This document shows, one piece after another, positions 8,489 to 11,206 of a stretch of DNA of 49,150 bases. Location: NCBI GenBank assembly GCA_902788275.1, contig CADAJV010000007.1, positions 1 through 49,150 of the forward strand, read 5' to 3'. Under the pieces are notes generated by a model. That model did not search any database. It worked only from the letters and a program-made list of their open reading frames with translations, and was not told where the DNA came from. Position numbers and translations under genes: made by a program. The DNA comes from an uncultured Bacteroidales bacterium. GTDB taxonomy: Bacteria > Bacteroidota > Bacteroidia > Bacteroidales > Bacteroidaceae. The stretch's first letter is position 1. Every line of letters starts with the position of its first letter.

Positions 8489-8518
8489 TTGCTATTATAA
8501 CAATAATTATTATATTTG
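8489..8518 (+). promoter_or_regulatory. Promoter of the candidate structured RNA / TlpA leader
   Basis: TTG at 8489-8491 and TATATTTG at 8511-8518 (perfect TAnnTTTG) are separated by 19 bases, matching the Bacteroidetes -33/-7 arrangement. The predicted transcript begins near 8525, about 240 bases before the thioredoxin ATG. Confidence 0.65.
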
Positions 8519-8524
8519 TAACCG

Positions 8525-8743
8525 ATTTATAACCAACTGTCTATGTAGCATCACAGACAAAAGACATTTAAGATAGAAGCGTTAGCTTTATTCTTGTCAT
8601 CTGAAATTCGCCAAATTATAGAAATACTCAAGAGTAGAAGTTAATGCTCGCGCAGATAGCGTGGGCTTTTACTCGGATATGAGTGTTAAGGTGTTTGGCG
8701 ATACCTCAGATGACGTAGACGATAGTAATTGTCCACGTTTTTT
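8525..8743 (+). ncRNA. Candidate structured RNA or long regulatory leader with terminator
   Basis: A closing helix pairs 8596-8604 with 8706-8714 (9 bp perfect) and 8608-8615 with 8694-8701 (8 bp perfect), separated by a 3x4 internal loop. Inside sit three local hairpins: 8625-8636 (TACT/AGTA), 8646-8666 (8 bp with two G.U pairs, loop AGATA) and 8671-8684 (ACTC/GAGT). A 6-bp hairpin with one mismatch (8715-8736) followed by T6 at 8738-8743 looks like an intrinsic terminator. Upstream is a good promoter (8489-8518). The DUF4369-TlpA gene starts 22 bases after the T-run, so this may be either a free-standing sRNA or an attenuating leader. It does not match the TPP, cobalamin, fluoride or hammerhead consensus as I know them. 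Confidence 0.5.
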
Positions 8744-8765: not shown

Positions 8766-9803
8766 ATGAAAAAACTTTTTATTACCCTCTTGACTGTCTT
8801 TATGGGACACAATATCCAGGCACAAAACAACGTCTATTTTACACTGAAAGCCAATCTGAAGCATCTGCCCAAGACGCTCTATATTGGCGAAAGCCCATAT
8901 CCAAAAGTAGGTGAAGCAGACACTGTGAACGTAATAAACGACAAATTCGAATATACCATTCCTGCCAAGAAACTCACCTCTACTTCGCCCACTTGGATAT
9001 ATTTGACTAACGGTAAAGGCTTCATGCAAAATTATTTGGTAGTTCCTGGCGAAGTTATGACGATCAAAGGCGATGTCCGTTCTGACGTAGAGATTAACGG
9101 CACAAAATTCTACAAGCAATGGGGTGCTGTAAAACGTTTGCTGCAAACAATAGAGGATGACGACAACGAAGATTTGCTCATTTTGAATTTTATGAAAAAA
9201 AATCCCGACAACGAAGCTGCAATCTTCCTTCTTTATCGACTAGAACACATTGCACCTGATCGCATAGAAGAAGCTATCGGTATTATTTCGGATAAAGTAC
9301 GCAAGGAGCGTATGGGGGAATGGTACGACGACCAGTTGACACGCTTGCGTAACCGCATAAAGGACAATCAGGCGCGACAAACCTTGCAGGCTAACGGCCG
9401 TGAAGCTCCTGATTTCACTCTGAACGACATCGATGGCCATTCACTCTCATTATACTCACTTCGCGGCAAATATGTCGTGTTAGATTTCTGGGGATCCTGG
9501 TGCGTATGGTGCATGAAAGGTGTACCTAAAATGAAAGAATACTATAATAAATATGCAGGCAAATTTGAAATATTGGGTATTGACTGCAATGAAACTGAAA
9601 ACAAGTGGAAGCAAGCAGTTAAGGACTACCAACTGCCATGGCTGAACGTTTATTGCACCAACGACTCGGATGTAAAGCGTCTATTCGGCATCAAGGCTTT
9701 CCCTACGAAAATCATTCTCAATCCAGAAGGGAAGATTGTAATGTCGGTTGAAGGGGAAGACCCCTCCTTCTATGATAAACTGGATGAACTTTTCGGAAAA
9801 TGA
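8766..9803 (+). CDS. Exported DUF4369-TlpA thioredoxin-like protein (WCVWC)
   Basis: A 345-residue periplasmic thiol-disulfide protein. The signal peptide is MKKLFITLLTVFMGHNIQAQ. An N-terminal DUF4369-like beta region (residues about 25-125) and a helical linker precede a TlpA-type thioredoxin domain from about residue 205. The redox pair is C246/C249 in WGSWCVWCMKG, and the cis-Pro lies in FGIKAFPTKII. The start is the Met just upstream of the signal peptide. The longer frame from 8661 would run through the structured RNA and is rejected. A second DUF4369-TlpA at 39631-40725 has CGSC instead of CVWC. Base composition is AT-richer than neighbouring housekeeping genes. A terminator follows at 9909. 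Confidence 0.9.
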   Translation: MKKLFITLLTVFMGHNIQAQNNVYFTLKANLKHLPKTLYIGESPYPKVGEADTVNVINDKFEYTIPAKKLTSTSPTWIYLTNGKGFMQNYLVVPGEVMTIKGDVRSDVEINGTKFYKQWGAVKRLLQTIEDDDNEDLLILNFMKKNPDNEAAIFLLYRLEHIAPDRIEEAIGIISDKVRKERMGEWYDDQLTRLRNRIKDNQARQTLQANGREAPDFTLNDIDGHSLSLYSLRGKYVVLDFWGSWCVWCMKGVPKMKEYYNKYAGKFEILGIDCNETENKWKQAVKDYQLPWLNVYCTNDSDVKRLFGIKAFPTKIILNPEGKIVMSVEGEDPSFYDKLDELFGK

Positions 9804-9948: not shown

Positions 9949-9974
9949 CTTAGAGCGACCTTATGAAATCTTGC

Positions 9975-10441
9975 GCAGACCTCGCAGAAACTAATGCAGA
10001 CTTCGCAGAATCTTACGCAGAGTTCGTGGAATTTTAAGCGGACTTTATCAGAAAAAAGCCAGAGTTCCTGAAATTGTCTTCGCCGAAACACAACTTTGAC
10101 TCGGCGAAGATACATTCGTGTCTCGGCGAAGACACGAGCGGGAAGTCGCGAAAAGACTGAACGAAGTCTGCTTAAAATCTGGGGAGGACACGCCAAAATT
10201 AGACGAAGGCCGATTAAAAACTGGCGAGAGTGGCTTTAGTTTTCACGAGAGTAGGGATAAATAAAACGAGAGTGGACTTCGTAAAATTTATCTCTGTTCG
10301 CGTTCACATTTATCTCTGTTCGCATCAGATTTATCTCTGTTCGCGTTACAAGGCGAAGTCTGCGCACGAAATCTTAGAGTCTGCGCGTGAAAACTAAAAG
10401 TCTGGGCGCGAAATCTTAAAGCCTGCGCATGCACTCGCGCA
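9975..10441. repeat. Second field of degenerate repeats on a 21-bp grid
   Basis: Different motif families, nearly all stepping by 21 bp. GCAGAC-type units lie at 9975, 9996, 10017, 10038 and 10059. ACGAAG occurs at 10161 and 10203 (42 bp). CGAGAGT occurs at 10225, 10246 and 10267. ATTTATCTCTGTTCGC occurs at 10286, 10308 and 10329 (22 then 21). AGTCTGCGC-type units lie at 10357, 10378, 10399 and 10420. CTCGGCG occurs at 10100 and 10122 (22). On the minus strand one frame gives a heptapeptide repeat (CEVC-like units) for about 100 residues, a by-product of 21 being 7 codons. There is no other gene in 9804-10579. Confidence 0.7.
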
Positions 10442-10579: not shown

Positions 10580-10879
10580 TCAGACTGATGGACGCAGTTC
10601 TACTGCTAACCCCATTGCTGCAGCTATTCGATATAGCGTTGAAACTGAAGGTATCGTTAATCCACGTTCTAAACGGGACACATATCCCTTGTTTGCCCCT
10701 ATTCGTTCTGCCAATTCTTGTTGCGTAAGTCCTGCATTCTTTCTGGCATCCAAGAGTATTTGTGCATTATATTCCTCCCATGCCTTGTTCTCTGCGGCCT
10801 TTCTGCTTTCTGAACCTCTCGGACCAAACTCCTGTTCCAGTTCAGCACTAACATCATAAATCTTTCTTTCGTTTTTCAT
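10580..10879 (-). CDS. higA: HigA-type antitoxin, XRE-family helix-turn-helix protein
   Basis: A 99-residue DNA-binding antitoxin. The C-terminal half is a Cro/CI-type HTH: AGLTQQELAERIGANKGYVS followed by RLERGLTIPSVSTLYRIAAA. The N-terminal half is a charged helix likely to contact the toxin. Its start overlaps the 3' end of the upstream toxin gene by 26 bases, the toxin-first order typical of HigBA. It probably represses its own operon through the palindrome at 11209-11234. Confidence 0.9.
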   Translation of the reverse strand: MKNERKIYDVSAELEQEFGPRGSESRKAAENKAWEEYNAQILLDARKNAGLTQQELAERIGANKGYVSRLERGLTIPSVSTLYRIAAAMGLAVELRPSV

Positions 10880-11192
10880 TTTTATATTCCTCCTTCAATT
10901 TAATGGCTTTATCTATTTCTCGTTTGGGTGCTTTTTGCGTCTTCTTCGTATAGCAGTTAAACAATACTACAATTGTATTTCCATCATAGATGAAAAAAAA
11001 TCGAAACTCTTTGCTGCCATAGGTGACACGAAACTCATACAGCCCATCCCTTATATAACTTATATAATGACGAGGTATCTTATCTTCCGTCTCAAACAGC
11101 AACAAGGCGCGTCTGATTTTACCACGCTCTTGCTCTGAGAGTTTTTTCATGAACTCTATGTAATAGTTCTTATATGCAATGATTTTTCTCAT
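10854..11192 (-). CDS. higB: HigB/RelE-family toxin (Gp49-like)
   Basis: A 112-residue protein of the RelE-fold, HigB/Gp49-like family, in which toxins cleave mRNA on the ribosome. Family features are YYIEFMKKLSEQERGKI near the N-terminus, DGLYEFRVTYGSKEFRFFF, and IVVLFNCYTKKTQKAPKREI. The basic residues after the last beta strand fit the catalytic and RNA-binding region. The ATG at 11190-11192 was chosen. A TTG three codons earlier lies inside the -7 element. The promoter spacing then leaves almost no 5' leader. The downstream partner is the HTH antitoxin. Confidence 0.88.
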   Translation of the reverse strand: MRKIIAYKNYYIEFMKKLSEQERGKIRRALLLFETEDKIPRHYISYIRDGLYEFRVTYGSKEFRFFFIYDGNTIVVLFNCYTKKTQKAPKREIDKAIKLKEEYKNEKRKKDL

Positions 11193-11198
11193 CGGCTG

Positions 11199-11206
11199 CA
11201 AAATTA
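11199..11206 (-). promoter_or_regulatory. -7 element of the higBA operon
   Basis: The minus strand reads TAATTTTG (perfect TAnnTTTG), ending 7 bases before the higB ATG. Transcription would therefore begin at or just before the start codon. Confidence 0.65.

Follow-up and report, generated by a model that had tools for sequence, protein, structure and literature searches.

A covarying leader RNA in front of diverse genes across Bacteroidota, probably a genetic switch

A structured RNA lies directly upstream of the gene for a secreted thioredoxin-fold protein in an uncultured Bacteroidales bacterium (GenBank assembly GCA_902788275.1, contig CADAJV010000007.1). The window, the whole stretch of DNA that was analysed, comprises positions 1 to 49,150 of this contig. 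Comparison with its relatives makes it likely that this is a cis-acting leader RNA belonging to a large, uncatalogued family of Bacteroidota, and that it would work as an attenuator in the window and in close relatives. The leader is probably a genetic switch at the start of the messages downstream of it. To our knowledge, few regulatory RNA classes are known in this phylum. The features of the window copy are collected in Table 1.

Table 1. Leader RNA of the window: its parts, its promoter and the gene that follows
Feature	Position in the window	Strand	Sequence, evidence or remark
Promoter	8489-8518	+	TTG 8489-8491 (-33), TATATTTG 8511-8518 (-7)
Transcription start	near 8525	+	predicted from the promoter
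5' module	8539-8570	+	GTCTATG in the window, GCCTATG in most relatives, then AAAGACAT
P1 hairpin	8577-8588	+	AAGC-GUUA-GCUU
J1/2 strand of P10	8589-8596	+	UAUUCUUG; partner 8629-8636, CAAGAGUA
P10 partner strand	8629-8636	+	just after P4; overlaps the P5 5' strand in the window copy
P2	8596-8604 / 8706-8714	+	8 of 8 model pairs with double changes (A6)
P3	8608-8615 / 8694-8701	+	covariation in A6, A5 and A10
P4	8623-8629 / 8681-8687	+	7 of 7 model pairs with double changes (A6)
P5	8632-8639 / 8667-8674	+	window fold and A6 covariation; capped by P6
P6	8646-8653 / 8659-8666	+	window fold and A6 covariation
GGU and ACC flanking the P3 3' strand	8690-8692 / 8703-8705	+	pseudoknot or alternative helix
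P7 terminator hairpin and T6	8715-8743 (8715-8720 / 8731-8736)	+	sequence, pair probabilities
Switch strand (putative)	8728-8740	+	P8 strand in relatives at 8728-8734; P0 pairing with 8577-8582 possible for 8735-8740
Downstream gene, secreted TlpA-like thioredoxin-fold protein, 345 aa	8766-9803	+	Pfam Thioredoxin_8, 2.8e-19

The nested fold in the window is a single rod in which helices P2 to P6 are stacked, with hairpin P1 on the 5' side and hairpin P7 followed by T6 on the 3' side. For segment 8525-8743 the folding energy is -74.6 kcal/mol; 200 dinucleotide shuffles average -45.3 (sd 4.5), and none of them is as good (z -6.5). A preliminary description, made from the letters alone, had called a structured RNA here and correctly placed the two paired blocks that close it. 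The 5' strands of P2 (GTCATCTGA) and P3 (TCGCCAAA) are exact reverse complements of their 3' strands. Inside these blocks it had drawn three hairpins side by side; what lies there is instead the one rod, with P4, P5 and P6 stacked. Pair probabilities are 0.95-1.0 for P1, P2 and P3 (0.98-1.0 for P1 alone) and 0.87-1.0 for five of the six pairs of P7, the sixth being an A.C mismatch. The promoter and terminator that it had assigned to the RNA were borne out as well. TTG and TATATTTG match what we take to be the Bacteroidetes -33/-7 promoter consensus, and a TAnnTTTG element recurs upstream across the family. The terminator stretch (8713-8743, -8.5 kcal/mol) ends in T6 at 8738-8743. A hairpin with a U-run ahead of a gene, a feature of attenuators that use an intrinsic terminator, is thus present at 8715-8743. 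The gap of 22 nt from the end of T6 to the ORF start at 8766 was also as described. For the encoded protein, the earlier label DUF4369-TlpA is sound in its thioredoxin domain and not in its DUF4369 part, which falls below the Pfam cutoff (19.3 vs 25 bits). Elsewhere in the window, the intergenic region after this gene (9955-10150) holds degenerate repeats, by eye CTTCGCAGAA-like and TCGGCGAAGA-like. A gene pair on the minus strand (10580-11201), HTH_3 and Gp49-like, is likely a toxin-antitoxin of the HigA/HigB type.

The RNA has many relatives. BLAST found three more copies at 77-87% identity in the source genome, together with short matches, and many in related genomes; one short match, on contig 44 of the source genome, later proved to be a divergent copy. 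A pattern scan (GGTG...ACCT) of named contigs yielded at least 117 loci, all of which also match a covariance model, R1, built from nine copies. Among the matches listed (80 titles), most are from Prevotella, Prevotellaceae and Bacteroidaceae, with Muribaculaceae, Salinivirgaceae and Alistipes also present. A second model, R2, was built from 53 diverse members. At E up to 0.002 it finds 12 sense copies in the source genome, the window copy among them, plus one antisense echo of a palindromic copy. With the source genome counted each time, the leader RNA occurs in 190 of 301 genomes and 22 of 30 genera of the same family, Bacteroidaceae (R1), in 77 of 198 genomes and 63 of 151 genera of the order (R2), and in 36 of 296 genomes and 20 of 140 genera of the phylum, other classes included (R2). 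The genomes examined carry one to 16 copies each; copy numbers from the family, order and phylum surveys are lower bounds, since up to 9, 13 and 9 candidates per genome, respectively, were scored. At E up to 1, Prevotella sp. tc2-28 has 7 matches, one of these at E about 0.02, and Bacteroides muris has 17, of which one at E about 0.02 is an antisense echo. In a small negative control, 50 kb of E. coli DNA searched together with the window gave no extra match at E up to 10.

Altogether 221 model matches were reduced to 191 distinct cores by dropping one antisense match and two cut by contig ends and by merging duplicates. Three loci that have lost the rod (L045, L046 and L047) were left out of this set. 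They keep the 5' module of the leader, and a strong hairpin takes the place of the rod. A T-run and an ECF-sigma-like gene (by sequence) follow in L046 and L047, and L045 is cut off by the contig end. Just upstream, the sequence resembles that of L002, where the rod is intact. Within the 5' module, GCCTAT is found in 107 of 160 loci and GACATA in 104 of 160.

Covariation in favour of the nested fold is overwhelming. By comparison, the RNA folds as a rod (P2-P6) with conserved internal loops, preceded by the 5' hairpin P1. The model alignments A6 (95 distinct rows), A5 (30 rows) and A10 (27 rows) are biased towards the modelled structure; in them 95.5, 92.7 and 90.0% of cells are paired, against 84, 69 and 63% when columns are shuffled and 32-48% when partners are slid. 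Without the one antisense row that A6 includes, its figure is 95.6%. Double changes are found in 29, 43 and 46 of the 48 pairs, respectively. In A6, 523 cells are changed on both sides, compared with 141 in shuffles and 45-78 when slid, these being counts of sequences rather than of independent events. The covariance-model homologues carry compensatory changes in both closing blocks, the check that the preliminary description had proposed. P3 undergoes wholesale switches between unrelated sequences (UCGCCAAA/UUUGGCGA, UUGGGGA/UCCCCAA, CUGAGAAA/UUUCUCAG and others), and P2 and P4 are almost free in sequence, with complementarity nearly always kept. P1 is paired in 94.7, 97.5 and 95.4% of cells, with double changes in 1, 2 and 3 of its 4 pairs (A6, A5 and A10). 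A U.G pair within P6 is preserved in 92 of the 95 sequences of A6, which speaks for an RNA over a DNA palindrome. RNAalifold returned 17 pairs on an early, misregistered alignment, A2, which served as a view of the pattern only.

Outside the nested fold, and crossing it or competing with it, three more helices recur: GGU/ACC, P10 and P8. All three emerge from comparison and were tested on unaligned sequence. For GGU/ACC, the pattern scan itself selects GGTG...ACCT, so its loci were kept apart in the count. Among 105 cores that were not pattern-selected, 87 have GGU/ACC, 10 GGC/GCC, 6 GGU/GCC and 1 GGC/GUC, and 1 is unpaired at the third pair; the script fixes GG and, bar GUC, CC, and this third pair is the test. 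The 112 pattern-selected loci comprise 110 with GGU/ACC, 1 with GGC/GCC and 1 in which it was not found. On A6, whose rows are mostly pattern-selected, 90.3% of cells are paired vs 89.5% in shuffles, a value reached by 51 of 500 shuffles, and in 36 of 88 the outer A-U pair does not form.

P10 joins J1/2, which directly precedes P2, to J4/5. Its mean energy in 55 divergent cores is -9.56 kcal/mol vs -7.37 with swapped partners, a z of -7.1; the positive control of this test, P2/P3 strands taken at fixed coordinates, came to only -2.6. In 36 non-redundant cores z is -7.6. No P10 signal appears in 162 close cores, in which the two strands are almost constant. Control pairings of J1/2 with the P2-P3 5' strands (z 2.1), P5-P6 (z -0.1) and the 3' tail (z 1.2) are not tellingly below zero. 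Two more comparisons reached significance: J1/2 with the 3' region holding the P2 3' strand (z -5.8), which is expected since the tested stretch overlaps P2, and the P1 5' strand with J4/5 (z -2.8), for which we have no explanation.

In P8 the 3' strand of the terminator hairpin pairs with sequence past the terminator, at a usual distance of 28-39 nt. This distance holds for 43 of the 44 six-base matches, and the remaining one lies at 59 nt. Helices of at least 6 bp are found in 43 of 159 close loci (5.6 expected) and 12 of 48 divergent loci (1.2 expected); most loci, 116 of 159 and 36 of 48, fall short of 6 bp. P8 covaries locus by locus, with differing sequences at a near-fixed distance. The window lacks P8 at the usual place and has just a 5-nt complement inside the gene (8805-8809). 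P0, the pairing of 8577-8582 with 8735-8740, is nearly always possible. It is paired in 93.9% of A6 cells, as in shuffles, and does not covary there; the divergent set gives a p of 0.036 only.

Other pairings were rejected or lacked support. The preliminary description had proposed a switch by pairing of 8539-8545 with 8714-8720, which is possible in the window and finds no covariation in the family. Its energy in cis is -8.65 kcal/mol vs -8.67 when swapped across 161 close loci, and p is 0.65 in 55 divergent loci. This pairing, which would join the 5' module to the 5' strand of P7, was dropped as a family feature for this absence of covariation; as both strands are near-invariant in close relatives, it may still form in the window. 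Pairing of the 5' leader with the tail after the terminator (25 of 160 vs 33 expected) and a hairpin presenting GGACU in P8-bearing loci (17 of 54 vs 9.8 expected, a weak enrichment) were also set aside.

Comparison further shows a unit with a promoter of its own, placed directly ahead of a same-strand gene. Of the 191 distinct cores, 11 have too little DNA around them, hence 180 are testable. In 175 of these the closest ORF of 100 aa or more runs in the same direction as the RNA, in 3 it is on the opposite strand, and 2 have none (median distance 59 nt). ORF starts lie within 150 nt at 154 loci and peak 40-70 nt past the model end. The tie rule of this count favours the plus strand, so a strand-blind recount was made with the longest ORF within 300 nt, which gave 167 same, 3 opposite and 10 none. 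TAnnTTTG occurs 40-99 nt upstream of the model start at 102 of 181 loci, vs 8 of 181 for an equally wide stretch further up; a separate count gave 103 matches. A U-run, defined as 7 or more T among the 9 nt that follow ACG, is present in 153 of 161 close relatives and in 6 of 25 and 10 of 23 members of the divergent sets. P7 itself pairs in only about 70% of A10 cells.

The preceded genes are enriched for signal-peptide-like starts. Such a start, called by a crude hydrophobicity rule, is found in 132 of 154 preceded genes vs 191 of 515 other ORFs at the same loci (Fisher p 7e-28). We scanned 139 of 149 non-redundant downstream proteins, cut at 450 aa; ten were left out. The families found include LRR_5 of the BspA type (36), dockerin (10), outer-membrane barrel (6), Big_2 (5), thioredoxin families (2) and SPFH (2). 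One of the two thioredoxin-type proteins is the window's own, and an element specific to thioredoxin or redox genes was rejected on this count. The earlier interpretation, a redox- or metabolite-responsive attenuator of the thioredoxin gene, is thus partly supported: the attenuator-like position before the gene stands, and the redox or thioredoxin link finds no support. PADLOC, run on the same 139 proteins, found four families only, with one protein each and a best E of 9.5e-7. SPFH (Band_7_1) genes come after the leader in three different genomes (L009/L103, L210 and L251), directly in two. Seven leaders from other classes (L226, L227, L232, L236, L238, L239 and L241) lie 225-579 nt before proteins that resemble TonB-dependent receptors in their N-terminal sequence. 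All seven have two TAnnTTTG boxes within 70 nt upstream.

Defence-like genes also appear behind the leader. Among the first genes after the 12 copies of the source genome are two PDC-S31 matches (one also DUF2971 in Pfam), two type II methyltransferases and one methyl-directed nuclease-like gene, 244 nt from its leader. The others are two LRR_5 genes, one ankyrin-repeat gene and the window's TlpA-like gene; two match nothing, and at L251 a small ORF comes first, with the SPFH gene 649 nt away. In L246, L252 and L002 of this genome, the leader is followed by a defence-like gene (PDC-S31 match, SRA-domain nuclease-like) and then by an LRR-like or dockerin-like surface gene, the latter two surface-gene labels being by sequence. 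A non-secreted gene sits between leader and surface gene at these three loci and at L077, L162 and L167. As a general feature such a cargo slot was rejected. A signal-like second gene on the same strand follows 18 of 36 non-signal first genes vs 41 of 109 signal-like ones (Fisher p 0.24), and with no excess the slot rests on single loci.

Genome G673 carries four leaders (L275, L276, L277 and L278) with 76-86% mutual identity over about 290-460 bp. The four proteins after them are without detectable mutual similarity, one being LRR-like by sequence, so the leader seems to be exchanged between genes as a module. The L276 cargo is a PDC-S31 match followed by LRR-like sequence, and related sequence also comes after the L278 cargo. 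In the order survey many copies lie near contig ends. Invertible DNA as the cause found no support at the ends that could be resolved, two in G741 and three in G673: these fall within duplicated leader regions, with no sign of inversion.

We propose that the leader adopts two states. In the stop state, P1 would form together with the P7 hairpin and its U-run. In the go state, the strand AGUCC|ACGYUU would leave P7 and pair with the upstream AAGCGU (P0) and, in copies that have the site, also with GGACU downstream (P8), making an H-type pseudoknot. P7 and P8 share a strand, as do P0 and P1, so the states P1 + P7 and P0 + P8 are mutually exclusive. Comparison establishes P1, P7 and P8 as helices; P0 and the switching itself we infer. 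The conserved loops of the rod, with the extra helices, would form the sensor, the decision being made by a small ligand or a protein. In the window and its close relatives, P7 together with the conserved U-run points to premature termination as the likely output. Since P8 requires the polymerase to be beyond the U-run, its target may be translation or stability of the read-through message and not termination. The weaker U-run of divergent copies and the partial pairing of P7 in A10 imply that termination alone does not account for the family. Where divergent copies lack a good U-run there may be a second mode, in which the strands named above would instead influence translation or the stability of the mRNA.

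The downstream genes are too varied for us to name a ligand, and we consider a small ligand and a protein about equally likely as the signal. c-di-GMP (GEMM) leaders are terminator-type riboswitches in which a sensor domain is followed by a terminator, and they precede diverse surface genes. The layout of the leader RNA is similar to that of terminator-type riboswitches such as these; no Rfam riboswitch matched it in the loci scanned. The RfaH/ops JUMPstart, UpxY and LoaP elements exert a similar leader control over operons of accessory and surface genes, and are short. It is possible, if not our favoured reading, that a dedicated RNA-binding protein or NusG-type antiterminator recognises the rod and lets the polymerase through on surface and defence genes. 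The broad secreted and defence gene set resembles the regulons of such specialised NusG proteins (RfaH, UpxY, LoaP) more than one metabolic path, and the large duplex-rich rod would suit a protein; the conserved internal loops and the three extra helices are more aptamer-like. A wider reading we hold only tentatively and with some doubt. It is that a pseudoknotted, phylum-wide class of RNA switches forms an exchangeable promoter-leader cassette. This would put surface genes under one common signal and, at some loci, also phage-defence cargo (DUF2971/PDC-S31, type II methyltransferases, methyl-directed nuclease) located between the leader and a surface gene.

It is unlikely that these are trans-acting small RNAs that happen to precede genes, with the terminated RNA as a product that pairs with distant mRNAs. 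They do have their own promoter, their own terminator in close relatives and several copies per genome, and paralogous small RNAs (FopS, Rfam RF04319) exist in Bacteroidetes. However, 175 of the 180 testable loci precede a same-strand gene, mostly at narrow spacing, which also speaks against the stand-alone small RNA that had been suggested for the window. P8, moreover, links the RNA with mRNA sequence past the terminator, covarying from one locus to the next, and P2 and P4 are free to change, as a seed would not be. A terminated leader might nevertheless have trans activity as a by-product. Less probable again is a self-cleaving ribozyme that sets the mRNA 5' end, for which the compact fold, several candidate pseudoknots and the phylum-wide occurrence before unrelated genes would speak, whereas the conserved U-run and P7 of close relatives point to termination. 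A DNA-level palindrome, as a mobile element end or recombination site, is very improbable: weak antisense model matches (19-38 bits) and leader modules that appear to move between genes would fit it, but promoter and gene orientation are strand-specific, the U.G pair is kept, and the window sequence as query has no blastn match for this copy in plasmid or phage collections, which also counts against carriage on either.

The cis-acting leader that we prefer is filed as a new class within a known kind, riboswitch- or attenuator-like in anatomy. Rfam 15 gave no match on the leader RNA in the window and the 44 distinct loci scanned (the window and 20 loci at gathering score, the window and 30 loci at permissive E-values). 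The best permissive match in the window scores 21.9 bits vs a cutoff of 128. FopS is likewise a Bacteroidetes family of paralogous RNAs; its model has 71 positions vs 179 for the leader RNA, and its sole match, in L207 (1013-1079), lies off the leader RNA (1501-1674). Flavo-1 (Rfam RF01705) is likewise a Bacteroidetes motif of unknown function. Its matches fall in several 5' transcribed regions, indistinctly sense or antisense in the passages of PMC9723704 that treat it, whereas the leader RNA is almost always sense and the scanned loci have no Rfam match to Flavo-1. Bacteroidales-1, Bacteroides-1 and Bacteroid-trp, candidate structured RNAs from the same bacterial group (Weinberg 2010, PMC2864571), have Rfam numbers and are unmatched by the leader RNA. 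GUCCY-hairpin and Bacteroides-2, listed without an Rfam number in the PMC2864571 table, fall outside the Rfam comparison. In the literature searched, including passages of PMC2864571, PMC8040213, PMC7366714, PMC10994844, PMC9723704 and PMC7160235, no account of the leader RNA was found; the supplement of PMC8040213, with 3161 candidate structures, may list fragments.

Bacteroidota are a main phylum of gut and rumen bacteria, and the leader ties surface proteins and defence genes together. Its signal, once found, would show how accessory surface and defence genes are turned on. The leader is also a potential ready-made control element for engineering gut commensals.
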